DNA from: Actinoplanes italicus
Lineage (GTDB): Bacteria; Actinomycetota; Actinomycetes; Mycobacteriales; Micromonosporaceae
Assembly: GCF_003001815.1 (NCBI RefSeq)
Contig: NZ_PVMZ01000001.1
Coordinates: 434,001 to 498,000, forward strand
Direction: 5' to 3'
DNA: 64,000 bases
This document shows positions 46,085 through 59,298 of the stretch, in pieces; within the stretch, counting starts at the first letter, position 1; every line of letters begins with the position of its first letter. The translations under genes were made by a program, and so were the position numbers. The notes beneath the pieces were generated by a model, which did not search any database, was not told the origin of the DNA, and saw only the letters and a list, made by a program, of their open reading frames with translations.

Positions 46085-49000
46085 TTACGTCGCCCGCCCC
46101 GTCCCGGTTTTGACCGGCCCGATCGTTACCGGCTCACCCAGGACGTCCTTGAGCAGCTGAGCACACCACTCGAGCAGCGCCTGGTCGCGCAGGAGCTCGC
46201 CACCGATCCGCCGGGTGCTCGGCCGCGGGACGCTGACCTGGTCGGCGCCGGGCTTGTAGACCGAGTCCGGGTGGTACCGCTTGAGTCGCAGCTGCTTGGA
46301 GTCGGGCAGGGCCAACGGTGAGAACCGGATGTGCTTGCCCTGCATGGTGACGTCGGTCAGGCCGTACGACCGGGCCCGCTGACGGAACCGGGCCACCGCG
46401 ATCAGGTTGACCACGGGAGCGGGCGGTTCGCCGTACCGGTCCTTCATCTCGCCGACCACCTCGTCCAGGCGGGCCTCGTCACGGGCCTCGGCGAGTTTGC
46501 GGTACATCTCGAGGCGCAGGCGCTCGACCGAGATGTATTCGGTGGGCAGGTGCGCGTCGATCGGCAGGTCGATCTTGACCTCCGGCTCCTCCTCCTGGCG
46601 CTCGCCCTTGAACTGGGCCACCGCCTCGCCGACCATCCGTACGTAGAGGTCGAAGCCGACACCCTCGATGTGGCCGGACTGCTCGCCGCCGAGCAGGTTG
46701 CCGGCGCCGCGGATCTCCAGGTCCTTCATCGCGACGTACATGCCGGCGCCGAGCTCCGTGTGCTGGGCGATGGTGGCCAGCCGCTCGTGGGCGTGCTCGG
46801 TGAGCGGCTTCTCCCGCGGGTAGAGGAAGTACGCGTACGCCCGCTCACGCCCCCGGCCGACGCGGCCACGGATCTGGTGCAACTGGGCGAGGCCGAGCAG
46901 GTCGGCGCGTTCCAGGATGAGCGTGTTGGCGTTCGGGATGTCGATGCCGGACTCGACGATCGTGGTGCAGACCAGGACGTCGAACTCCTTCTCCCAGAAC
47001 CCGACCATCACTTTCTCGAGCTGTTCCTCGCTCATCTGGCCGTGTGCGATCGCGACCCGCGCCTCGGGCACCAGCTCGCGGAGTTTGCGGGCCGCCCGGT
47101 CGATCGACTCGACCCGGTTGTGCAGGTAGAAGACCTGACCGTCGCGGAGCAACTCGCGGTGGACGGCCGCGGCGACCTGCTTCTCGTCGTAGGCGCCGAC
47201 GTAGGTGAGGACCGGGTGCCGTTCCTCGGGCGGGGTGGCGATGGTCGACATCTCGCGGATGCCGGTGATCGCCATCTCCAGGGTCCGCGGGATCGGCGTG
47301 GCTGACATGGTGAGCACGTCCACCGACGCGCGCAGGGCCTTGAGCTGTTCCTTGTGCTCGACGCCGAACCGCTGTTCCTCGTCCACGATGATCAGGCCGA
47401 GGTTGGAGAACCGGGTCGACTTGGCGAGCAGCCGGTGCGTACCGATGATGATGTCGACCGTGCCGTTGGCGGCACCCTCCAGGGTGAGGGTGGTCTCCTT
47501 CGGCGTCTGGAACCGGGACAGCTGCTTGATCTGCACCGGGAACTGACTCATCCGCTCGGTGAACGTGTTGAAGTGCTGCTGGGCGAGCAGTGTCGTGGGC
47601 ACGAGCACGGCCACCTGCTTGCCGTCCTGCACGGCTTTGAACGCCGCGCGTACCGCGATCTCGGTCTTGCCGTAACCGACGTCGCCGCAGATCAGCCGGT
47701 CCATCGGGACCTGCAGTTCCATGTCGTGCTTGACCTCGACGATCGCGGCCATCTGGTCGGGCGTCTCGGTGTACGGGAACGCGTCCTCCAGCTCACGCTG
47801 CCAGGGTGTGTCCGGGCCGAACGCGTGTCCCGAGGAGGCCTGCCGGGCCGCGTACAGCTGGATGAGCTGCGCGGCGATCTCCTTGACCGCCTTCTTGGCT
47901 CGCGCCTTGCTCTTCTGCCAGTCGGCGCCGCCCATCTTGTGCAGGGTGGGCGACTCGCCGCCGACATAGCGGGAGAGCTGGTCGAGCTGGTCGGTGGGGA
48001 CGAACAGCCGGTCGCCGGGCTGGCCCCGCTTCGACGGCGCGTACTCGATCACGAGGTATTCGCGCTCGGCGCCGTTGACCGCGCGCTGCACCAGCTCGAT
48101 GTAGCGGCCGATGCCGTGCTGCTCGTGCACCACGAAGTCGCCGGTCTTGAGTTCCAGCGGGTCGATCGTGTTGCGCCGGCGGGCCGGCATCTTGCGCATG
48201 TCCTTCGTGGACGCGCCACGGCCGCCGGAGATGTCGTTGCCGGTGATCACCGCGAGCCGGGACGCCTCGTCGACGAAGCCGTGGTTGAGCCCGCCGCAGG
48301 TGATCAGCAGTTGACCGTCGCCGATCGCGGCCGGGATGGAGTCGACCGTCGTGACGCCCAGACCGGCGTCGCGCAGCAGCTCGGCGGCCCTCTGCGCGGT
48401 GCCCTTGCCCTCGAATACCAGCGCGACGGCCCAGCCCTGGCCGGCCCATCCGGCGAGGTCAGCGGCGAGCCGGGCGGTCTCGCCGTGGTAGAGCGGGACG
48501 GGCTGCGCGGCCAGCGCGATGGCGTCGCCGAGGTCCGGAGCGACCTCCACCCGCGGAGTTTCGAGCCAAGGCGTGTCGGATTCCGGCGAGTCCGCCGTGG
48601 CCAGGCCGAAGGGCGAGAGGGTCCACCAGGGTTGGCTGAGAACGGCCGCGTGTGCCCGTACATCCGCAAGGCTCTTGAATGCGACCGCGCCCACATCGAT
48701 CGGAGCCTGACCGCCCACCGCGGCCGCCGCCCAGGAGGCCTCAAGGAATTCATCCGATGTACGGGTGAGGTCGTGTGCCCGGGTCCGGATGCGCTCCGGG
48801 TCGCAGAGAAGTACGTGAGTGCCGGCCGGCATGCAGTCGATCAGCAGCTCCATGTTGTCGGTGCCGCTCAGCAGGGCGGGCGCCAGCGACTCCATGCCCT
48901 CGACCGGGATGCCCTCGGACAGTTTGTCGAGGATCTCGGCGAGTTCGGGGTGCTCGGCCGCGAGAGAAGCCGCCTTGGCGCGTACGGAAGGGGTGAGCAG

Positions 49001-49720
49001 CAGCTCCCGGCAGGGCGGCGCCCACAGGTGCGGGACCTGGTCGATGGTGCGCTGGTCGGCGACCGCGAACGTGCGGATCTCCTCCACCTCGTCGCCCCAG
49101 AACTCGACCCGGGACGGGTGCTCGTCGGTGGGCGGGAAAACGTCCAGGATGCCGCCGCGCACCGCGAACTCGCCGCGCTTGGTGACCAGGTCGACCCGCG
49201 CGTACGCCATGTCGGAGAGCCGCCGGGCGACCTCCTCCAGCTCGGCCTCGCGACCGGCGACCAGCTCCACCGGCTCCAGGTCGCCGAGCCCCTTGAGCTG
49301 CGGCTGCAACAGTGATCGGACCGGGGCGACGACCACCCGCAACGGGTCGTCGCCGGGGTGGGCGAGACGGCGCAGCACGGCCAGGCGGCGGCCGACCGTG
49401 TCCGAGCGCGGCGACAGGCGCTCGTGCGGCAGTGTCTCCCAGGACGGGTAGACGGCGACCAGGTTCGGGTCGATCAGGCAGCCGAGCGCGTCGGCCAGGT
49501 CGTCGGCCTCGCGCGAGGTGGCGGTGACGGCCAGGACCGGGCGCTGGGCGCCGCCGAGGTCGGCCGGCCCGGCGACGGTCGCCACCACGAACGGCCGGAG
49601 CGAGACCGGTGCCGTGAGGTCGAGCGAGTCCGAGTCGACGAAGCCTTTGGCGGCCAGGTCGCGCGCGCGGGAAAGCCCTCGATCGCGCAGGGCGGCAGGA
49701 ATCAGACCGGACAGTTGCAT
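46085..49720 (-). CDS. mfd: Transcription-repair coupling factor Mfd
   Basis: A 1211-residue Mfd. It recognises stalled RNA polymerase, removes it by ATP-driven translocation and recruits UvrA. An N-terminal UvrB-homology part precedes the RNA polymerase-interacting domain (KTGDFVVHEQHGIGRYIELV), the helicase core (Walker A GDVGYGKTE near 680, DEEQ), motif VI QIRGRVGRGRERAYAY, and the C-terminal autoinhibitory part. ATG 49720 follows GGGGGG by 9 nt. Longer in-frame readings lie in the divergent promoter region. Confidence 0.97.
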   Translation of the reverse strand: MQLSGLIPAALRDRGLSRARDLAAKGFVDSDSLDLTAPVSLRPFVVATVAGPADLGGAQRPVLAVTATSREADDLADALGCLIDPNLVAVYPSWETLPHERLSPRSDTVGRRLAVLRRLAHPGDDPLRVVVAPVRSLLQPQLKGLGDLEPVELVAGREAELEEVARRLSDMAYARVDLVTKRGEFAVRGGILDVFPPTDEHPSRVEFWGDEVEEIRTFAVADQRTIDQVPHLWAPPCRELLLTPSVRAKAASLAAEHPELAEILDKLSEGIPVEGMESLAPALLSGTDNMELLIDCMPAGTHVLLCDPERIRTRAHDLTRTSDEFLEASWAAAAVGGQAPIDVGAVAFKSLADVRAHAAVLSQPWWTLSPFGLATADSPESDTPWLETPRVEVAPDLGDAIALAAQPVPLYHGETARLAADLAGWAGQGWAVALVFEGKGTAQRAAELLRDAGLGVTTVDSIPAAIGDGQLLITCGGLNHGFVDEASRLAVITGNDISGGRGASTKDMRKMPARRRNTIDPLELKTGDFVVHEQHGIGRYIELVQRAVNGAEREYLVIEYAPSKRGQPGDRLFVPTDQLDQLSRYVGGESPTLHKMGGADWQKSKARAKKAVKEIAAQLIQLYAARQASSGHAFGPDTPWQRELEDAFPYTETPDQMAAIVEVKHDMELQVPMDRLICGDVGYGKTEIAVRAAFKAVQDGKQVAVLVPTTLLAQQHFNTFTERMSQFPVQIKQLSRFQTPKETTLTLEGAANGTVDIIIGTHRLLAKSTRFSNLGLIIVDEEQRFGVEHKEQLKALRASVDVLTMSATPIPRTLEMAITGIREMSTIATPPEERHPVLTYVGAYDEKQVAAAVHRELLRDGQVFYLHNRVESIDRAARKLRELVPEARVAIAHGQMSEEQLEKVMVGFWEKEFDVLVCTTIVESGIDIPNANTLILERADLLGLAQLHQIRGRVGRGRERAYAYFLYPREKPLTEHAHERLATIAQHTELGAGMYVAMKDLEIRGAGNLLGGEQSGHIEGVGFDLYVRMVGEAVAQFKGERQEEEPEVKIDLPIDAHLPTEYISVERLRLEMYRKLAEARDEARLDEVVGEMKDRYGEPPAPVVNLIAVARFRQRARSYGLTDVTMQGKHIRFSPLALPDSKQLRLKRYHPDSVYKPGADQVSVPRPSTRRIGGELLRDQALLEWCAQLLKDVLGEPVTIGPVKTGTGRAT

Positions 49721-49910
49721 GACGAGTGACCCCCCGAGGGCACGACGAACAGCCCCGCTCCAGGTGGAGGACGGGGGTGTGCACCCCAGCTTAGTCCGAC
49801 ACCCTGACAGATCCCGCACCCTGCGTCGTATCGCACAGCATGTCCGACATATGGGCGGAACGCCCGTGGAACAGTGCCCGGACGTTCGCACGATTAAGGG
49901 GGAGGCAAAC

Positions 49911-51686
49911 GTGCGGATCTTGCTTCTCTGCTCAGCTTTCAACGGCCTGAGCCAACGCGTCCAGTGCGCTCTGCGCGACGCCGGACACCAGGTCGGAGTG
50001 CTGCTGGCGACGAGCGAGCGGGACATCACCGACGGGGTACGGGCGGCCGGCCCGGACCTGATCATCGCTCCGTATCTGACCGATCGTGTGCCGGCCGCGG
50101 TGTGGCGCCACTGGCGGACGATCATCGTGCACCCGGGCCCGGTCGGTGACCGCGGACCGTCCTCGCTGGACTGGGCGATCAGCGACGGCATGCGCGCCTG
50201 GGGCGTGACCGCGCTGCAGGCCGTGGAGGAGTTCGACGCCGGTCCGATCTGGGCCACCCGGACGTTCCCGATGCCGGCCCAGCCGCCGCGCAAGTCGGCG
50301 CTCTACAGCGGCCCGGTCGCCGACGCGGCACTGGAGTGCGTCTTCGAGGTGGTCGCGAAGGCCGCCGACCCGAACTTCGTCCCGGTGCCGGCCGACAACG
50401 CGCCGACCGAGACCCTCGGCGCGCGGCCACGGCCACCGATGCGGCAGGCCGATCGGGCCTTCGACTGGTCGGAGCCGACCGGGACCGTCCTGCGCCGGAT
50501 CCGTGCCGCGGACGGCTCCCCCGGTGTTCGCACCGAGGTGGGCGGACTCGACGTGTACGCCTACGACGCGCACCCCGGCCTGGCGCGCGGTCACCGGCCG
50601 GGCACGGTCGTGGGCCGCCGGCAGGGTGCCGTGCTGGTGGCCACCGGTGACGGCAGCCTGTGGATCGGGCACCTGCGCCCGGCGGCCCCCGGCGGGATCA
50701 AGCTGCCCGCGACCACCGTGCTCGGCGACCGGCTGCGCGGTGTGCCGCACTCGGCGGCCCCGGCCGACGTCGACCCGGAGGTGCCGGGCGTGTTCCGGCA
50801 GGTCCGCTACCGGCGCACCGGGGCGGTCGGCTGGCTGCACTTCGACTTCTACAACGGGGCGATGTCGCCGGGCCATTCACGGCGGCTGCTGACCGCTCTG
50901 CGGCACGCGATCGGGCAGGACACCCGGGTGCTGGTGCTGCGCGGCGGCACCGAGTCGTTCAGCAACGGCATCCACCTCGGCGCGATCGAGGCGGCGTCCG
51001 ATCCGCAGGCGGCCGCGTGGGCCGGGATCCGGGCGATCAACGACGTGTGCCGGGAGATCATCCTGTGCACCCGGCAGGTCGTGGTGGCCGCCTACGCGGG
51101 CAGTGCGGGGGCCGGTGGGGTGATGCTCGGGCTGGGTGCGGACATCGTCGCCGCCCGGGACGGGATCGTGCTCAATCCGTACTACGACATGGGGTTGTTC
51201 GGCAGTGAGCTGCACACCTGGTCGCTGCCGCGCCGGGTCGGAGCCGACCTCGCGCAGCGGCTGATCGACGACAAACTGCCGCTGAGCAGCGCGACCGCGG
51301 CTCGGATCGGACTGGTCGACGAGGTCGGGCCGCGGCACCCGGAGGCGTACGGCCGATGGCTCACCGCCCTGGCCGAACGCCACGGTGACGTGACCGCCGC
51401 GCGCCGCCGCCGAGCCGCGAAGGCGAAGCGGCTGGCCGCCGAACGGATCCCGCTGGACGTGTACGAGACCCGCGAACTGGCCGAGATGAGCCGTGACATC
51501 TTCACCGACCGTTCCGGGTTCGCGGCCGCCCGCCGCGCGTTCGTCCACAAGCTACGGCCGGGCCGGACGCCGAGACATCTGCTGCTCGCCGCGAATGCCG
51601 GACCGGTCGTGACCACCCGGCAGCGCCCGGCCAACAGCGGGCCGATCAGTGCCCCTCTGCGTCCCGCCGTCCCGGTGACGGCCTGA
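49911..51686 (+). CDS. hoxX: HoxX-like formyltransferase/enoyl-CoA hydratase fusion
   Basis: A 591-residue two-domain protein from GTG 49911 with AAGGGGGAGG upstream. The N-terminal half is formyltransferase-like (IIVHPGPVGDRGPSSLDWAI near 72–91), the C-terminal half crotonase-like (FSNGIHLGAIEA, then IVLNPYYDMGLFGSELHTWS and LPRRVG). This matches HoxX, whose characterised members make carbon monoxide from formyl-CoA for [NiFe]-hydrogenase assembly. No hydrogenase genes lie in the window. Its stop is only 3 nt before the cslA start, so it looks co-transcribed with cslA–glxA–cslZ. A different formyl-CoA or CO-related role there would be new. Confidence 0.85.
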   Translation: MRILLLCSAFNGLSQRVQCALRDAGHQVGVLLATSERDITDGVRAAGPDLIIAPYLTDRVPAAVWRHWRTIIVHPGPVGDRGPSSLDWAISDGMRAWGVTALQAVEEFDAGPIWATRTFPMPAQPPRKSALYSGPVADAALECVFEVVAKAADPNFVPVPADNAPTETLGARPRPPMRQADRAFDWSEPTGTVLRRIRAADGSPGVRTEVGGLDVYAYDAHPGLARGHRPGTVVGRRQGAVLVATGDGSLWIGHLRPAAPGGIKLPATTVLGDRLRGVPHSAAPADVDPEVPGVFRQVRYRRTGAVGWLHFDFYNGAMSPGHSRRLLTALRHAIGQDTRVLVLRGGTESFSNGIHLGAIEAASDPQAAAWAGIRAINDVCREIILCTRQVVVAAYAGSAGAGGVMLGLGADIVAARDGIVLNPYYDMGLFGSELHTWSLPRRVGADLAQRLIDDKLPLSSATAARIGLVDEVGPRHPEAYGRWLTALAERHGDVTAARRRRAAKAKRLAAERIPLDVYETRELAEMSRDIFTDRSGFAAARRAFVHKLRPGRTPRHLLLAANAGPVVTTRQRPANSGPISAPLRPAVPVTA

Positions 51687-51689
51687 CCG

Positions 51690-53486
51690 ATGAGCATCCT
51701 GCACACCCCCGACCCGGGGGCCACTCAGCCTGTCCCGCTCATCGCCAAGGTTCCGCCGCAGCGCCCGCCGACCGGCCGCACCCCGATGCCGAGCGACGAG
51801 ATGAACAGCACCCATCTGCTGCCCCGGCAGTCCGCCTACAGCGCCTACAGCGTGTTGGCCGGACCGGCTCGGGAGGCGCCCGCCGACGGGGAGGCGTACC
51901 GGGTCGGCATGCGGCGCCTGGACCGCAGCCGTCCGATCCGGACGCTGCTGATCACACTGTTCGCCTTCGCCTTCGAGAGCACCTTCTTCGGCTGGCTGAT
52001 CACCTCGATCGAGATGCCCGACCAGCGGCTGCACACGATCCTCTACCTGGCCACCGGCTTCATGATCGTGGCGACCGCGGCGATCGAGCTGTTTCGCCTG
52101 GTCAACGTGGTGACGCTGTGTCTGGCCACGCTCTGGGCGCGGGATCCGCAGCCGGTCGTGCCGGACACGTCGCTGCGGGTCGCGTTCCTCACCACGATCG
52201 TGCCCGGCAAGGAGCCGGTGGAGATGGTGGAGCGGACCCTGCGGGCGGCACGTCAGGTGCGCTACGACGGGCCGTACGACGTGTGGCTGCTCGACGAGGG
52301 CGACGACCCGGTGGTCAAGCTGATGTGCCGGCGGCTCGGCGTGCGGCACTTCACCCGCCGCGGTGTCGAGGCGTTCAACACCCCGAGCGGCCGGTACAAG
52401 GCGAAGACCAAGCACGGCAACTACAACTCGTGGCTGACCGCGCACGGCGGCGACTACGACGTCTTCGTCTCGGTCGACCCCGACCACGTCCCGGCGCCGA
52501 ACTTCTGCGAGCGGCTGCTCGGCTACTTCCGGGACCCGGATGTGGCGTTCGTGGTGGGGCCGCAGATCTACGGCAACTACGACAACCGGGTGACCCGCTG
52601 GGCCGAGTCCCAGCAGTACCTTTTCCACTCGCTGCTGCAGCGGGCCGGGAACCGGCGTGGCATGGCCATGCTGGTCGGCACCAACAACGCGGTGCGCATC
52701 TCGGCGATCGAGCAGATCGGCGGCCTGCAGGACTCGATCACCGAGGACATGGCCACCAGCCTGGAGATGCACGCCACGCGCAACCCGGTCACCGGCAGGC
52801 GCTGGAGTTCGGTCTACACCCCGGACGTGCTCGCGGTCGGCGAGGGGCCGTCCTCGTGGACCGACTACTTCACCCAGCAGCACCGCTGGTCGCGGGGCAC
52901 CGACGAGGTGGTCGTGCGCCGGTTCGCCACGATGCTCCTGCGGCTCGGACCGGCGCGGGCGCTGCACTACGGGCTGCTCATGTCGTACTACCCGCTGACC
53001 GCGGCGGCGTGGCTGCTCGGGGCGCTGAACGCGGCCTGCTTCCTGCTGCTGGGCGCGAAGGGCGTACAGGTGCCGGGTGAGGTCTGGCTGATGCTCTATG
53101 TGGACGCCGCGCTCTTCCAGGTCGGCCTGTACCTGTTCAACCGGCGGCACAACGTCAGCCCGCACGAGACGTCCGGATCGTCGGGGCTGGCCGGGATGCT
53201 GGCGTCGACGCTGTGCACGCCGATCTACGTGTCGTCGCTGATGTCGGCGCTGCTGCGTCGTACGACCGGATTCGTGGTGACCCCGAAGGGCGACTCGACC
53301 AGCCCGGACCGGTTCGCCACGTTCGCGTCCGGCCTGCGCTGGGCGCTGCTCTACACCGTTCTGCTGGCCGTCTCGCCGTTCGTCGACCACGTCGATCCGG
53401 CCATGTACGCCTGGCCCGCTCTCAACCTCGCCATCTGCCTCACCCCGGTGACGCTGTGGCTGATCTCCCGGAGGAAAACGGCATGA
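51690..53486 (+). CDS. cslA: Cellulose synthase-like glycosyltransferase CslA
   Basis: A 598-residue family GT2 enzyme making an exported beta-glucan at hyphal tips. Two membrane helices near 85–150, then the catalytic domain with SVDPDHVPAPNF (about 260–271), TEDMATS (about 350) and QQHRWSRGT (about 395), the D, TED and QxxRW motifs of processive beta-glycosyltransferases, followed by more membrane helices to the C-terminus. Its stop overlaps the glxA start by 4 nt and hoxX lies 3 nt upstream. Confidence 0.95.
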   Translation: MSILHTPDPGATQPVPLIAKVPPQRPPTGRTPMPSDEMNSTHLLPRQSAYSAYSVLAGPAREAPADGEAYRVGMRRLDRSRPIRTLLITLFAFAFESTFFGWLITSIEMPDQRLHTILYLATGFMIVATAAIELFRLVNVVTLCLATLWARDPQPVVPDTSLRVAFLTTIVPGKEPVEMVERTLRAARQVRYDGPYDVWLLDEGDDPVVKLMCRRLGVRHFTRRGVEAFNTPSGRYKAKTKHGNYNSWLTAHGGDYDVFVSVDPDHVPAPNFCERLLGYFRDPDVAFVVGPQIYGNYDNRVTRWAESQQYLFHSLLQRAGNRRGMAMLVGTNNAVRISAIEQIGGLQDSITEDMATSLEMHATRNPVTGRRWSSVYTPDVLAVGEGPSSWTDYFTQQHRWSRGTDEVVVRRFATMLLRLGPARALHYGLLMSYYPLTAAAWLLGALNAACFLLLGAKGVQVPGEVWLMLYVDAALFQVGLYLFNRRHNVSPHETSGSSGLAGMLASTLCTPIYVSSLMSALLRRTTGFVVTPKGDSTSPDRFATFASGLRWALLYTVLLAVSPFVDHVDPAMYAWPALNLAICLTPVTLWLISRRKTA

Positions 53487-55429
53487 AGCCCCGCACGCGT
53501 CCCTCACTCGCCCGCCGGACGGTGAGCGGGCTGGTCACGCTGGTGGTGCTGGCCGTCGTGGCGATCGCGAACCGCCCGATGGTCGCCGTCGCCGGTGAGG
53601 CCCTGCACACGTACCAGATCAATCGTCAGTCCTACAAGGAACGTCACGGGCACTGGGCGCGGCTGCCGGTGCCGCACGACTTCAAGGTCAACGCGATCCA
53701 TGCGGCGCTGCTGCACACCGGCAAGGTGCTGATCATCGCGGGCAGCGGCAACAACAGGGACGCGTTCGAGGAGAAGTCGTTCCGGACCGTGCTCTACGAC
53801 CCCCGCAAGGACGAGTTCACCGACGTGCCCACGCCGACCGACGTGTTCTGCGCGGGCCACACCTTCCTGCCGGACGGCAAGCTGCTGGTGGCCGGGGGCA
53901 CGAAGTCGTACGAGGTGCTCGAGGAGGACGTGGAGCACGCCGCCGGGGTCATGAAGATCAAGAACGAGTCGCCGGGCGGTCCGCGGGTCTTCCCGAAGAA
54001 CACCAGGCTGCTGTCGGCGACCGGTGAGGCGTACCGGACGCGCGCCAAACTGACCGTCCCGGCCGCCCGGAAGATGAGCCACGGTCCACACGCGACGCTG
54101 CACGCCGGCGAGGCGGAGGTCTGGGTCGACGCCGAGGCGAAGGGCGACCGGCCTGTGGTGAAGGCCCCCGCCCAGTACTCGATCGAGGGCCTGACCGGCG
54201 CAGACGTCCGCAACCTCTACGGCATCGCCGAAAAGATCACCAGAGAGAAGCAGGAGTACGGCGGAGACCGCACCTCCTACGAGTTCGACCCGCTGACCGA
54301 ACGCTACGTGCGGACCGGCAACATGCGCGACCACCGGTGGTACCCGACCCTGATCGGCCTGACCGGCGGTGACGTGATCGCGGTCTCCGGGCTCGACCAA
54401 TTCGGCCGGATCCTGCCCGGACGCAACGAGCGCTACCTGCCGGCGCAGCGCCGCTGGGTGGCCGCGCCCGAGCTGAAGCGCTACTTCCCCACGTACCCCG
54501 GCCTGCACCTGACAGCCGACGGGCGGGTCTTCTACTCCGGCTCCAACTCCGGATACGGCTCGGACACCGAGGGCCGGACCCCCGGGCTGTGGAACGTCGA
54601 GCGCAACACCTTCCAGGTCGTACCCGGCCTGCGCGACCCGCAGATGAACGAGACCAGTTCGTCGGTCCTGCTGCCACCGGCCCAGGACCAGCGGGTGATG
54701 ATCCTCGGTGGCGGTGGGGTCGGCGAGTCGGAGGAGTCGACCGCGCGCACCGACATCGCCGACCTGGACGAGACGAGCCCGCGGTACCGGCCCGGCCCGG
54801 ACCTGCCGAAACCGGCCCGCTACCTGTCGACCGTGGTGCTGCCGGACGACACGGTGCTCACCACCGGCGGCTCGTCCGGTTACCGGGGCGGGTCCTATCG
54901 GGGTGAGCCGCGCAGCGACCTGTTCAACGCGCAGATCTACCACCCGCGGCGCAACGCGTTCGAGACGGCCGCCGAGTCGACGGTCGGCCGCAACTACCAC
55001 TCCGAGGCGATCCTGCTGCCCGACGGCCGGGTGATCACCATGGGTGGCGACCCGCTCTACGACAGGACCGGCAAGAACGCCGGCACCTTCGAGCAGCGGA
55101 TCGAGATCTTCAGCCCGCCCTATCTTTTCAAGGGCGAGCGTCCGGAGATCACCGACGGTCCGGTCACGGTCGATCGAGGATCAACTGCCTTCTTCGGTAC
55201 GCCGGACGCGTCGCGCATCGCGACGGCCCGGCTGGTCCGTCCCAGTGCGGTCACCCACGTCACGGACGTCGACCAGCGGTCCGTCGCGCTCGGTGTGCAG
55301 CGGTCGGCGAGCGGGCTCCAGGTGACAGTGCCGGAAAAGTCCGGTCTCGTGCCGTCTGGGTGGTACATGCTGTTTCTTGTGGACGACAAGGGAATCCCGT
55401 CGACGGCCCGCTGGGTCCGGGTGCGCTGA
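53483..55429 (+). CDS. glxA: GlxA-type radical copper oxidase
   Basis: A 648-residue galactose oxidase-like kelch protein anchored by an N-terminal membrane helix (about 14–30). Cys123 in FCAGH is the thioether cysteine; Tyr505-His506 in NYHSE and His592 in THVTDVDQR match the copper ligands of the family. Tyr143 is the nearest candidate for the thioether tyrosine. Streptomyces GlxA oxidises the glycan made by CslA and is needed for its deposition. The ATG has GGAGG 8–12 nt upstream and overlaps the cslA stop. Confidence 0.93.
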   Translation: MKPRTRPSLARRTVSGLVTLVVLAVVAIANRPMVAVAGEALHTYQINRQSYKERHGHWARLPVPHDFKVNAIHAALLHTGKVLIIAGSGNNRDAFEEKSFRTVLYDPRKDEFTDVPTPTDVFCAGHTFLPDGKLLVAGGTKSYEVLEEDVEHAAGVMKIKNESPGGPRVFPKNTRLLSATGEAYRTRAKLTVPAARKMSHGPHATLHAGEAEVWVDAEAKGDRPVVKAPAQYSIEGLTGADVRNLYGIAEKITREKQEYGGDRTSYEFDPLTERYVRTGNMRDHRWYPTLIGLTGGDVIAVSGLDQFGRILPGRNERYLPAQRRWVAAPELKRYFPTYPGLHLTADGRVFYSGSNSGYGSDTEGRTPGLWNVERNTFQVVPGLRDPQMNETSSSVLLPPAQDQRVMILGGGGVGESEESTARTDIADLDETSPRYRPGPDLPKPARYLSTVVLPDDTVLTTGGSSGYRGGSYRGEPRSDLFNAQIYHPRRNAFETAAESTVGRNYHSEAILLPDGRVITMGGDPLYDRTGKNAGTFEQRIEIFSPPYLFKGERPEITDGPVTVDRGSTAFFGTPDASRIATARLVRPSAVTHVTDVDQRSVALGVQRSASGLQVTVPEKSGLVPSGWYMLFLVDDKGIPSTARWVRVR

Positions 55430-55433
55430 ACCG

Positions 55434-56402
55434 ATGGCACCCCCGACGGCACAGTACCGAGCACTGCTGATCTCAGCTCTGCTCGGCGCCACGCTGGGCG
55501 GCGCGGCGCCGGCCTCGGCGCTCTCCTCCGACCTCTACGTCGACCCGGGCGGGCTGGCCGCGCGATACGTACGCAACCTGCAGGTCTCCGGACGGCACGC
55601 GGAGGCCTCGGCCCTGCGGCGCATCGCCGACCAGCCGGCCGCGACGTGGTTCACCGACGCGCGGCCCGGGTTCGCCGACCGGGCCCGGAAGCTGGTCGGC
55701 GGGGCACGGGCGGCCGGGCGGACGGCCGTCGTGACGCTGTACTTCATCCCGCACCGGGACTGCCGGCAGTACTCGGCGGGCGGGGCGCGCAACGCGCGGA
55801 CGTACCGTAATTGGATCTCTTCGATGGCTCTCGCCCTGCGCGGCCACCGAACCCTGGTGATCCTTGAACCGGACGCCGTGGCCCACGCCGTCCAGGGCTG
55901 CGTGGGCCCGCGCGCCACCACCCTCCGATACGCCCTGCTGGCACACGCCGTGGACACTCTGCGAGCGCAACCGGGCGTCGCGGTCTACCTGGACGCCGGG
56001 CACCCCGGCTGGATCTCCGCCGAACGGATGGCCCCGGCGCTGCGGCGCGCCGGCGGCACCCGCGCCCGAGGCTTCTCGCTCAATGTCGCCAACTTCCGGA
56101 CCACCTCCGAGAACCTGAGGTACGGGACAGCGCTGTCCCGCCTCCTCAGCGGCCGGCACTTCGTCGTCGACACGAGTCGCAACGGCAACGGGCCGGCCCG
56201 GCGGAGCAAGGGCGACCGGCACTGGTGCAACCCGCCCGGACGCCGGCTCGGAGCCGCTCCGACGCTGCGCACCGGACATGCGCTCGTCGATGCGTACCTG
56301 TGGGTGAAACGCCCCGGAGAGTCCGACGGCACCTGCGGCGCGGGAGCCCCGCCCGCAGGTCAGTGGTACCCGGCCTATGCACGGAGTCTCGTCGGGTCAT
56401 GA
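55434..56402 (+). CDS. cslZ: Family GH6 endoglucanase of the csl operon
   Basis: A 322-residue secreted glycoside hydrolase family 6 enzyme. Signal peptide ending ASA near 28, catalytic Asp109 in IPHRDCRQYSAGG and Asp147 in LEPDAVAH, then VDTSRNGNGP and WVKRPGESDG as the typical GH6 loops. It starts 4 nt after glxA. The equivalent Streptomyces gene cslZ accompanies cslA–glxA. Expected to trim the beta-glucan. Confidence 0.92.
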   Translation: MAPPTAQYRALLISALLGATLGGAAPASALSSDLYVDPGGLAARYVRNLQVSGRHAEASALRRIADQPAATWFTDARPGFADRARKLVGGARAAGRTAVVTLYFIPHRDCRQYSAGGARNARTYRNWISSMALALRGHRTLVILEPDAVAHAVQGCVGPRATTLRYALLAHAVDTLRAQPGVAVYLDAGHPGWISAERMAPALRRAGGTRARGFSLNVANFRTTSENLRYGTALSRLLSGRHFVVDTSRNGNGPARRSKGDRHWCNPPGRRLGAAPTLRTGHALVDAYLWVKRPGESDGTCGAGAPPAGQWYPAYARSLVGS

Positions 56403-56502: not shown

Positions 56503-59298
56503 ATGACAGAGCAGCCTGCCCTCGACGAGCGAGAGGGATCCGACGCCGCACTACGTGCCGACATCCGCCGGATCGGCACGTTGCTCGGTCAGACGCTGGC
56601 CCGGCAGGAGGGTCGTCCTCTTCTCGACCTGGTCGAGGAGGTCCGTGCCCTGGTTCGCCAGGACGCCGTGGCCGCCGCCGACCGGCTCGCGTCGATGGAC
56701 ATCACCACCGGCACCAAGCTGGCCCGCGCGTTCTCCACCTACTTCCACCTGGCCAACATCACCGAGCAGGTGCACCGGGCCCGCGACCTGCGGCGCCGCC
56801 GGGCGAAGAACGGCGGCTGGCTCGACCAGGCCGCCAAGCGGATCGCCGAGAAGGGTGTGCCGGCCGACGAGATCGCCGCCGCCGCCCGCCGGCTCGCCAT
56901 CCGCCCGGTCTTCACCGCGCACCCCACCGAGGCCGCCCGCCGCTCGATCCTGTCGAAGCTGCGCCAGGTCGCCGACTCGCTCGACGCCGAGTCCGCTGCC
57001 GCCGCCCTCTACGGCGCCACCGACACCACCGCCTCCACCAGGCGGTTCGCCGAGCTCATCGACCTGCTCTGGCAGACCGACGAGCTGCGTCTCGACCGGC
57101 CGGACCCGACCGACGAGGCCCGCAACGCGGTCTACTACCTCAAGGACCTGTACGCCGACGCGGCGCCGCAGGTGCTCGACGACCTGGCCGACACGCTGCG
57201 CCGCCTCGGCGTCGAGACCGCGCCGACGTCCCGGCCGCTCACCTTCGGCTCGTGGATCGGCGGCGACCGTGACGGCAACCCGTTCGTCACGCCCAAGGTC
57301 ACCAGCGAGGTCCTGCTCATCCAGCATGAGCACGGCATCCAGGCCACCGAGAAGGCGATGGACAAGCTGATCGACGAGCTGTCCGTCTCCCGGCGGCTGC
57401 GCGGCGTGTCGCTCGACCTGTCCGCCAGCCTCGCCCAGGACCTCGACAACCTGCCCGAGGTCGCGTCCCGCTTCCGCCGGGTCAACGCCGAGGAGCCGTA
57501 CCGCCTCAAGGTCCGCGCCATCAAGGCGAAGCTCGCCAACACCCGGGGCCGGCTCGTCAACGGCACCCCGCACGTGCCCGGCCGCGACTACCTCGGCAGC
57601 GACGAGCTGATCAGCGACCTGGAGCTGATGCGCGCCTCGCTGGCCCGCAACTCCGGCCAGCTGTCCGCCGTCGGTGTCGTGTCCACCGCCATCCGCAACG
57701 CGTCCGCCTTCGGCCTGCAGCTGGCCACCCTGGACGTACGCGAGCACGCCGAGAAGCACCACGAGGTGCTCCTGCAGATGTACGCGCAGGTCGGCGAGGT
57801 GGACGACTACGCCACCCTGGATCGCGTGTCGCGTACCAAGCTGCTCGCCGCCGAACTGACCGGGCGCCGGCCGCTGTCGAACGCCGACACCCCGCTCACC
57901 GACTCGGCCCGCAAGACGTTCGACGTGTTCCACACGATCCGCAAGGCGCAGGAACGCTTCGGGCCGGACGTCATCGAGTCGTACATCATCTCGATGACCC
58001 TCGGTGTCGACGACGTGCTCGCCGCGGCCGTGCTGGCCCGCGAGGCAGGCCTCGTCGACATCCACACCGGGCGCGCCCAGGTCGACATCATCCCGCTGCT
58101 GGAGACCCCCGCCGAGTTGGACGCCGGCGGCGACCTGCTCGACGAGATGCTCTCCATCCCGGCCTACCGGGAGATCGTCCGCGCTCGCGGCGACCTGCAG
58201 GAGGTCATGCTCGGCTACTCGGACTCCAACAAGGAGGCCGGTATCACCACCAGCCAGTGGCGGATCCACAAGGCGCAGCGCTCCCTGCGCGACGTGGCGG
58301 CCCGGCACGGCGTCCGGCTCCGGCTCTTCCACGGCCGCGGCGGCACCGTCGGCCGTGGTGGTGGCCCCACCCACGAGGCGATCCTGGCGCAGCCGTACGG
58401 CACGCTCGACGGCGCCATCAAGGTGACCGAGCAGGGTGAGGTCATCTCCGACAAGTACACGGTGCCCGCCCTGGCCCGGGAGAACCTGGAACTCACCGTC
58501 GCCGCGGTCCTGCAGGCCACCCTGCTGCACACCAGCATCTCGGTCGACCCGGTCCGCCTGGACGTGTGGGACTCGGTCATGGACACCGCCTCCGACGCGG
58601 CGTTCACCCAGTACCGTTCGCTCGTCGAGGACCCGGACCTGGCCGCCTACTTCTGGGCCGCCACCCCCACGGAGCTGCTCGGGGCCCTCAACATCGGCTC
58701 CCGTCCCGCCAAGCGCCCCAACGCGGACGCCGGCCTCAGCGGCCTGCGCGCCATCCCGTGGGTGTTCGGCTGGACCCAGACCCGCCAGATCGTCCCCGGC
58801 TGGTTCGGCGTAGGCACCGGCCTGGCCGCCGTCCGCGCCGCCGGCCTGGGCGACGAACTCGACGCCATGAACAAGAACTGGCAGTTCTTCCGCACGTTCC
58901 TGTCGAACGTCGAGATGATGCTCGCCAAGACCGACCTGTCGATCGCCCGCCGCTACGTGGAGACCCTGGTCCCCGAGGAGCTGCGCCCCATCTTCACCAA
59001 GATCGAGCAGGAGTACGCCCTGACCGTCCAGGAGGTCCTGGCGATCACCGGCGGCACCGAGATCCTGTCCTTGCAACCGGAGCTGTCCCGCACCCTCAGC
59101 GTCCGCGACACCTACCTGGAGCCGCTGCACCACCTGCAGGTGGCCTTGCTCCGCCAGTACCGCGACCTGGGCGAGGCCGGCCGCCAGATGCCGACCGCAC
59201 CGGGCGCCCGCCGCGGCCCGTCCGACTCCACGGCCCTGGAGAGGGCCCTGCTGACGACGGTCAACGGTATTGCGGCCGGCATGCGCAACACAGGCTGA
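56503..59298 (+). CDS. ppc: Phosphoenolpyruvate carboxylase
   Basis: A 931-residue PEP carboxylase feeding oxaloacetate to the TCA cycle. The catalytic histidine lies in FTAHPTEAARRS (about 139–150), the mobile loop in HGRGGTVGRGGGPTHEAI near 608–625, and WIGGDRDGNPFVT also fits. It follows the csl operon after about 100 bp and ends at a strong terminator (59317–59348). Confidence 0.97.
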   Translation: MTEQPALDEREGSDAALRADIRRIGTLLGQTLARQEGRPLLDLVEEVRALVRQDAVAAADRLASMDITTGTKLARAFSTYFHLANITEQVHRARDLRRRRAKNGGWLDQAAKRIAEKGVPADEIAAAARRLAIRPVFTAHPTEAARRSILSKLRQVADSLDAESAAAALYGATDTTASTRRFAELIDLLWQTDELRLDRPDPTDEARNAVYYLKDLYADAAPQVLDDLADTLRRLGVETAPTSRPLTFGSWIGGDRDGNPFVTPKVTSEVLLIQHEHGIQATEKAMDKLIDELSVSRRLRGVSLDLSASLAQDLDNLPEVASRFRRVNAEEPYRLKVRAIKAKLANTRGRLVNGTPHVPGRDYLGSDELISDLELMRASLARNSGQLSAVGVVSTAIRNASAFGLQLATLDVREHAEKHHEVLLQMYAQVGEVDDYATLDRVSRTKLLAAELTGRRPLSNADTPLTDSARKTFDVFHTIRKAQERFGPDVIESYIISMTLGVDDVLAAAVLAREAGLVDIHTGRAQVDIIPLLETPAELDAGGDLLDEMLSIPAYREIVRARGDLQEVMLGYSDSNKEAGITTSQWRIHKAQRSLRDVAARHGVRLRLFHGRGGTVGRGGGPTHEAILAQPYGTLDGAIKVTEQGEVISDKYTVPALARENLELTVAAVLQATLLHTSISVDPVRLDVWDSVMDTASDAAFTQYRSLVEDPDLAAYFWAATPTELLGALNIGSRPAKRPNADAGLSGLRAIPWVFGWTQTRQIVPGWFGVGTGLAAVRAAGLGDELDAMNKNWQFFRTFLSNVEMMLAKTDLSIARRYVETLVPEELRPIFTKIEQEYALTVQEVLAITGGTEILSLQPELSRTLSVRDTYLEPLHHLQVALLRQYRDLGEAGRQMPTAPGARRGPSDSTALERALLTTVNGIAAGMRNTG

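Follow-up and report, generated by a model that had tools for sequence, protein, structure and literature searches.

A HypX-type gene at the head of the cslA-glxA-cslZ operon of Actinoplanes italicus, a genome in which no hydrogenase was detected

The hoxX gene upstream of the cslA-glxA-cslZ genes of Actinoplanes italicus probably belongs to a distinct actinobacterial subfamily of HypX, here called YD, that carries out a HypX-type reaction independently of hydrogenase; the linkage to csl would be an arrangement of this lineage. Judged from sequence, YD HoxX is most likely a hydrogenase-independent formyl-tetrahydrofolate decarbonylase or deformylase. The grounds for this reading are the domains, the predicted fold, the conserved residues, the clade, the absence of hydrogenase and the loss of hoxX and of csl independently of one another. 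The arrangement of the genes holds up and is conserved, and the point of interest is a HypX subfamily kept without hydrogenase; a glycan role for HoxX is unlikely. The original prediction had placed a HoxX-type enzyme without hydrogenase in a csl operon, which stands and extends to a conserved operon, and had suggested a formyl- or CO-related step in the synthesis of the glycan or in the handling of GlxA, which is not supported.

Layout of the locus

The analysis concerned the window, i.e. the whole stretch of 64,000 nucleotides (contig NZ_PVMZ01000001.1, positions 434,001 to 498,000 of the forward strand), and the genome that contains it. On the minus strand lies an open reading frame of 1211 aa (46085..49720, ATG at 49720), divergent to hoxX, which we take from its size, position and synteny to be mfd, the transcription-repair coupling factor; its relatives in the same place are 81–93% identical. 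All other genes of the locus are on the plus strand. hoxX (49911..51686, 591 aa) starts with the GTG at 49911, directly preceded by GGGGGAGG, and ends with TGA at 51684–51686. The junction between this stop and the ATG of cslA (TGACCGATG, 51684..51692) contains a 3-nt spacer, CCG. cslA (51690..53486, ATG at 51690, TGA ending at 53486) encodes a cellulose-synthase-like family-2 glycosyltransferase, and its stop shares the sequence ATGA with the start of glxA at 53483 (4-nt overlap). glxA (53483..55429) encodes a radical copper oxidase (NF052501, 897.7 bits versus a cut-off of 800) and is followed, after the 4-nt spacer ACCG, by cslZ (55434..56402), a glycoside hydrolase of family 6. The gene for phosphoenolpyruvate carboxylase, ppc (56503..59298), begins 100 nt past cslZ. 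On re-reading the sequence, the predicted coordinates of hoxX, cslA, glxA and cslZ, the two gaps and the overlap were all recovered.

The region between mfd and hoxX (49721..49910, plus strand) contains blocks that are conserved in an alignment with the relatives G187, A. sandaracinus and G126, and is the probable promoter of a hoxX-csl transcript. A scan of this region for the sigma-70 consensus gave no match. Repeated GTCCGACA blocks at 49790–49855, inside the conserved region, are possible regulator sites.

Domains and active-site loop of HoxX

The Pfam domains PF00551, PF02911 and PF00378 were found in HoxX, so the fusion of a formyltransferase-like N domain to an enoyl-CoA hydratase-like C domain is present. 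The best solved relative is HypX of Aquifex aeolicus (PDB 6j0p; E 1.7e-117, full length). An AlphaFold2 model of the window protein (pLDDT 85) superimposes on 6j0p with a Z of 46.7 and an rmsd of 2.3 Å over 552 residues, and Foldseek concurs. Five catalytic residues have been proposed for HypX, of which the equivalents of Y416 and E426 are required in the R. eutropha protein (PMC6802093). These residues (H74, D80, D109, Y416 and E426; A. aeolicus numbering) were invariant in an alignment of the HoxX sequences collected (146/146), and H74, D80 and D109 were invariant in alignment A1 too; one alignment reference that read through a stop was left out. In the window the formyl-transfer residues H74, D80 and D109 (50130..50237, plus strand) have the same numbering as in A. 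aeolicus HypX, and the catalytic Tyr and Glu correspond to Y425 and E433 in the rebuilt active-site loop VLNPYYDMGLFGSELHTW (51168..51221, plus strand). The window protein thus has in common with the formyltetrahydrofolate decarbonylases HypX/HoxX of Cupriavidus necator and A. aeolicus the two-domain make-up, the predicted fold, the five catalytic residues and the motif HPGPxGDRGP. It differs in its setting, as no hyp or hydrogenase genes were found in the genome and hoxX sits among housekeeping genes, and in its active-site loop NPYYDMGLFGSELHTW, which is two residues shorter than that of A. aeolicus.

The loop around Tyr416 and Glu426 divides the HoxX sequences into types. The YD-type loop, NP[YHF]Y[DEN][MIV]G[LIM]xGSELH, occurs in the window protein and 122 others (some species counted twice); its typical form is NPYYDMGLxGSELH, versus NPHYxxxGxLxGSEYWTY for the hydrogenase type. 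The hydrogenase-linked loop, NPHYxxxG(x)LxGSE[YFL]WTY, was found in Aquifex, Bradyrhizobium (where the gene adjoins hypF and hypE), Streptomyces, Pseudonocardia and one Nitriliruptorales genome, and is not present in the window protein. The hypX genes that Streptomyces carries in its hydrogenase clusters (S. avermitilis type), actinobacterial homologues with about 44–48% identity to the window HoxX, keep the loop NPHY...GSE[YFL]WTY and, unlike the window gene, lie 1–11 kb from hypD (6/6). In a tree calculated without the loop columns the YD-type sequences form one group (support 99); the NYHY type of genus g19, a third one on a very long branch, is placed inside this group as well. The members of this third type (L164–L168) have the loop NYHYxGMGGLxGSEFHTLTL and about 40% identity to the window HoxX; their genomes are HypD-positive, with HoxX away from hypD. 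Four sequences (L053, L054, L190 and L191; Nocardiopsis, genus g46) have a hydrogenase-type loop in genomes without HypD.

Close pairs of genomes both without HypD had pairwise dN/dS values for hoxX of about 0.03–0.56, as obtained by the simple Nei-Gojobori method on high-GC genes, by which omega is probably overstated. The value was 0.33 for the A. italicus window genome versus A. sandaracinus and 0.03–0.10 for pairs of Promicromonospora. These values are below 1, which argues that hoxX is under purifying selection in HypD-less genomes.

Proposed reaction and relation to hydrogenase

In the reaction that we favour, the N domain of HoxX would move the formyl group from 10-formyl-tetrahydrofolate to bound CoA, and the C domain, in which the loop bearing the catalytic Tyr and Glu is altered, would break formyl-CoA, most likely to CO; tetrahydrofolate would be returned. 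The purpose may be one-carbon balance or the supply of CO as a signal. The YD loop spans the neighbourhood of I419, the residue lining the neck of the CoA in HypX of A. aeolicus, so the handling of substrate or product may differ. A large actinobacterial clade that keeps HypX under selection without hydrogenase would point to a use of biological CO, or to an outlet for formyl-tetrahydrofolate, that is new, and the label 'hydrogenase maturation protein' would mislead for YD-type hoxX genes. S. coelicolor is not known to have a NiFe-hydrogenase. A supplementary tree of 2010 (PMC2974642) already includes HypX-like genes of S. coelicolor and other organisms of this kind, and the bare idea of a hydrogenase-free HypX is therefore not wholly new; in the literature searched, the sole role described for HypX is to supply oxygen-tolerant hydrogenases with their CO ligand.

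The loci of YD-type HoxX are unrelated housekeeping settings, unlinked to hyp genes. The gene lies within topA-tmk-holB in Promicromonosporaceae, in the order ftsH-folE-hoxX in Planosporangium, and in a conserved mshC-hoxX-metH neighbourhood in Glycomyces and Stackebrandtia (L051, L052, L063–L099) and in L174–L177, with a gene for a biopterin-dependent aromatic hydroxylase in between in Glycomyces. Some neighbours (folE and metH, and the MHYT gene described next) hint at folate or CO, yet the neighbourhoods vary so greatly that no single partner is shown. A gene for a stand-alone MHYT membrane protein adjoins HoxX in two separate HypD-less lineages, of which one has the divergent and one the downstream arrangement; the HoxX is of the YD type in L049, L172 and L181 and has the hydrogenase-type loop in L190 and L191. 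MHYT has been shown to sense CO through copper in the case of CoxC (PMC11347149), and the position of this candidate CO/O2 sensor next to HoxX is no more than suggestive. A vertically kept, loop-remodelled actinobacterial HypX might deliberately make CO for a use other than hydrogenase, e.g. as a signal inside the cell that MHYT membrane proteins with bound copper would read, with csl as a passenger arrangement; we hold this to be possible but doubtful. MHYT as a universal partner of HoxX was rejected, since in Actinoplanes it is present in HoxX-positive and HoxX-negative genomes alike. Likewise, the supply of CO from HoxX to the Mo-Cu CO dehydrogenase was dropped, because the co-occurrence of HoxX and CoxL across the family was not significant (p 0.16, uncorrected for shared ancestry).

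It is rather unlikely that YD-type HoxX serves one-carbon balance by making formate instead of CO, as a formyl-tetrahydrofolate deformylase or formyl-CoA hydrolase whose activity overlaps that of PurU. Such an activity would be consistent with the intact N-terminal site, the shorter and changed loop beside the CoA thiol (including the I419 region) and the loci near folE and metH; however, the bases proposed for decarbonylation, Y416 and E426, do not vary, and PurU co-occurs with HoxX. The association with PurU had a p of 0.0005 outside the two big genera, uncorrected for kinship, and faded when each genus was counted once (p 0.20). The idea that HoxX replaces PurU was discarded, as the trend is the opposite one, if weak at the genus level.

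In the whole window genome, which comprises 11.15 Mb on 71 contigs and has a listed completeness of 100%, profile searches detected neither the large subunit of NiFe-hydrogenase (PF00374) nor HypD. The absence of a hydrogenase gene that had been noted for the window thus holds genome-wide, and no hydrogenase operon was found elsewhere in the genome that could account for HoxX. Across the family, HoxX is present in 90 of 201 genomes, and 63 of these 90 are without HypD; HypD was found in 27/90 HoxX-positive and 31/111 HoxX-negative genomes (p 0.76, uncorrected for shared ancestry). Because about one quarter of the YD genomes in the family have HypD, some YD-type HoxX may still feed a hydrogenase, and in these genomes HoxX is on another contig or distant from hypD. 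If HoxX were an ordinary hydrogenase maturase that had outlived a recently lost hydrogenase or served an occasionally gained one, this would explain why every catalytic residue is retained and would fit the finding of HypD in 13 of the 37 genomes of the window genus. We consider this improbable, as HoxX presence is statistically independent of HypD, the YD loop is unlike that of all hydrogenase-linked members examined, and whole clades keep HoxX without HypD (outside the family, the 22 HoxX genomes sampled from Promicromonosporaceae and Nocardioides without exception; also most of the sampled Glycomyces). One HoxX of the collection (L139, G029:C12) is cut off after about 200 residues and lies away from mfd and ppc; it is likely a decaying copy.

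Linkage of hoxX and csl in Actinoplanes

Co-directional adjacency of hoxX and a downstream cslA was found in 24 of the 34 Actinoplanes genomes with full-length HoxX (one on a contig ending inside cslA). The pairing is therefore not confined to this strain and exceeds what a chance operon in one genome, the option left open by the original prediction, would give; judged from gene order across the genus, the genomes have this operon junction by common descent. No earlier description of the pairing was found in the open-access literature. hoxX and cslA are separated by −1 to +3 nt in the window subclade and a neighbouring one, and mostly by about 50–570 nt elsewhere. The operon sits within a larger block of synteny, mfd (divergent)-hoxX-csl-ppc, in which csl is the variable part: the remaining 10 genomes have hoxX and ppc directly adjoining with no csl between, and four of these have no glxA over the cut-off anywhere. 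The Mfd tree shows 7 changes in csl linkage. The hoxX genes of Catenuloplanes and Pilimelia lie beside mfd without csl, which fits the idea that csl may be a later arrival at the mfd-hoxX locus.

The sister of the window genome, G187 (support 88), retains mfd, csl and ppc at this locus, and its hoxX (L143, G187:C15) is reduced to an in-frame remnant of 13 codons, GTG CGT ATC ATA CTT TTC CGC TCA GCT GGT TCG AGC GTC TGA GCG ATG (the last codon being the cslA start). The upstream region, the ribosome site and the 3-nt spacing to cslA are kept, and no other HoxX was found in a search of the G187 genome. From this natural deletion the HoxX protein is, at the level of the genome, dispensable for csl. 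The promoter and ribosome site of hoxX would have come to drive csl in the window lineage, so that csl transcription would start at the hoxX promoter, with translational coupling as a further possibility; hoxX would head the csl transcript only owing to the position of the cslA-glxA-cslZ cassette, which this lineage has between hoxX and ppc. An apparent one-pathway gene pair can thus be mere promoter sharing.

It is very improbable that HoxX acts in the glycan pathway, with CO, formyl-CoA or tetrahydrofolate recycling modifying the glycan or regulating the copper-dependent GlxA: the conserved adjacency, the tight spacing and the copper of GlxA, a metal to which CO can bind, speak for it, but hoxX and csl have been lost independently of each other, HoxX should be cytosolic and GlxA should act outside the membrane (from their domain types), and the presence of GlxA and HoxX is linked inside the window genus only (p = 1.0 outside this genus and genus g12, uncorrected for shared ancestry). 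Functional coupling of HoxX and csl was rejected on the reciprocal losses.

The window has the make-up of other csl operons, i.e. cslA, glxA and a GH6 cslZ, and shares the three gene families and their order with the Streptomyces cluster (SCO2836-2838). In Streptomyces cslZ is divergent (PMC9040799), whereas in the window it is on the same strand, and the genes upstream of csl are SCO2833-2835 versus hoxX and mfd in the window. HoxX is not a regular csl component, as csl occurs without it in G187, in G159, at a second glxA copy of the window genome and in Streptomyces, where no HoxX was found beside csl. The second glxA is full-length and located away from hoxX (G000:C41:30116-32032). In csl copies of the relatives G159 and G187 (L141, L142), cslZ is on the strand opposite to glxA, as in Streptomyces.
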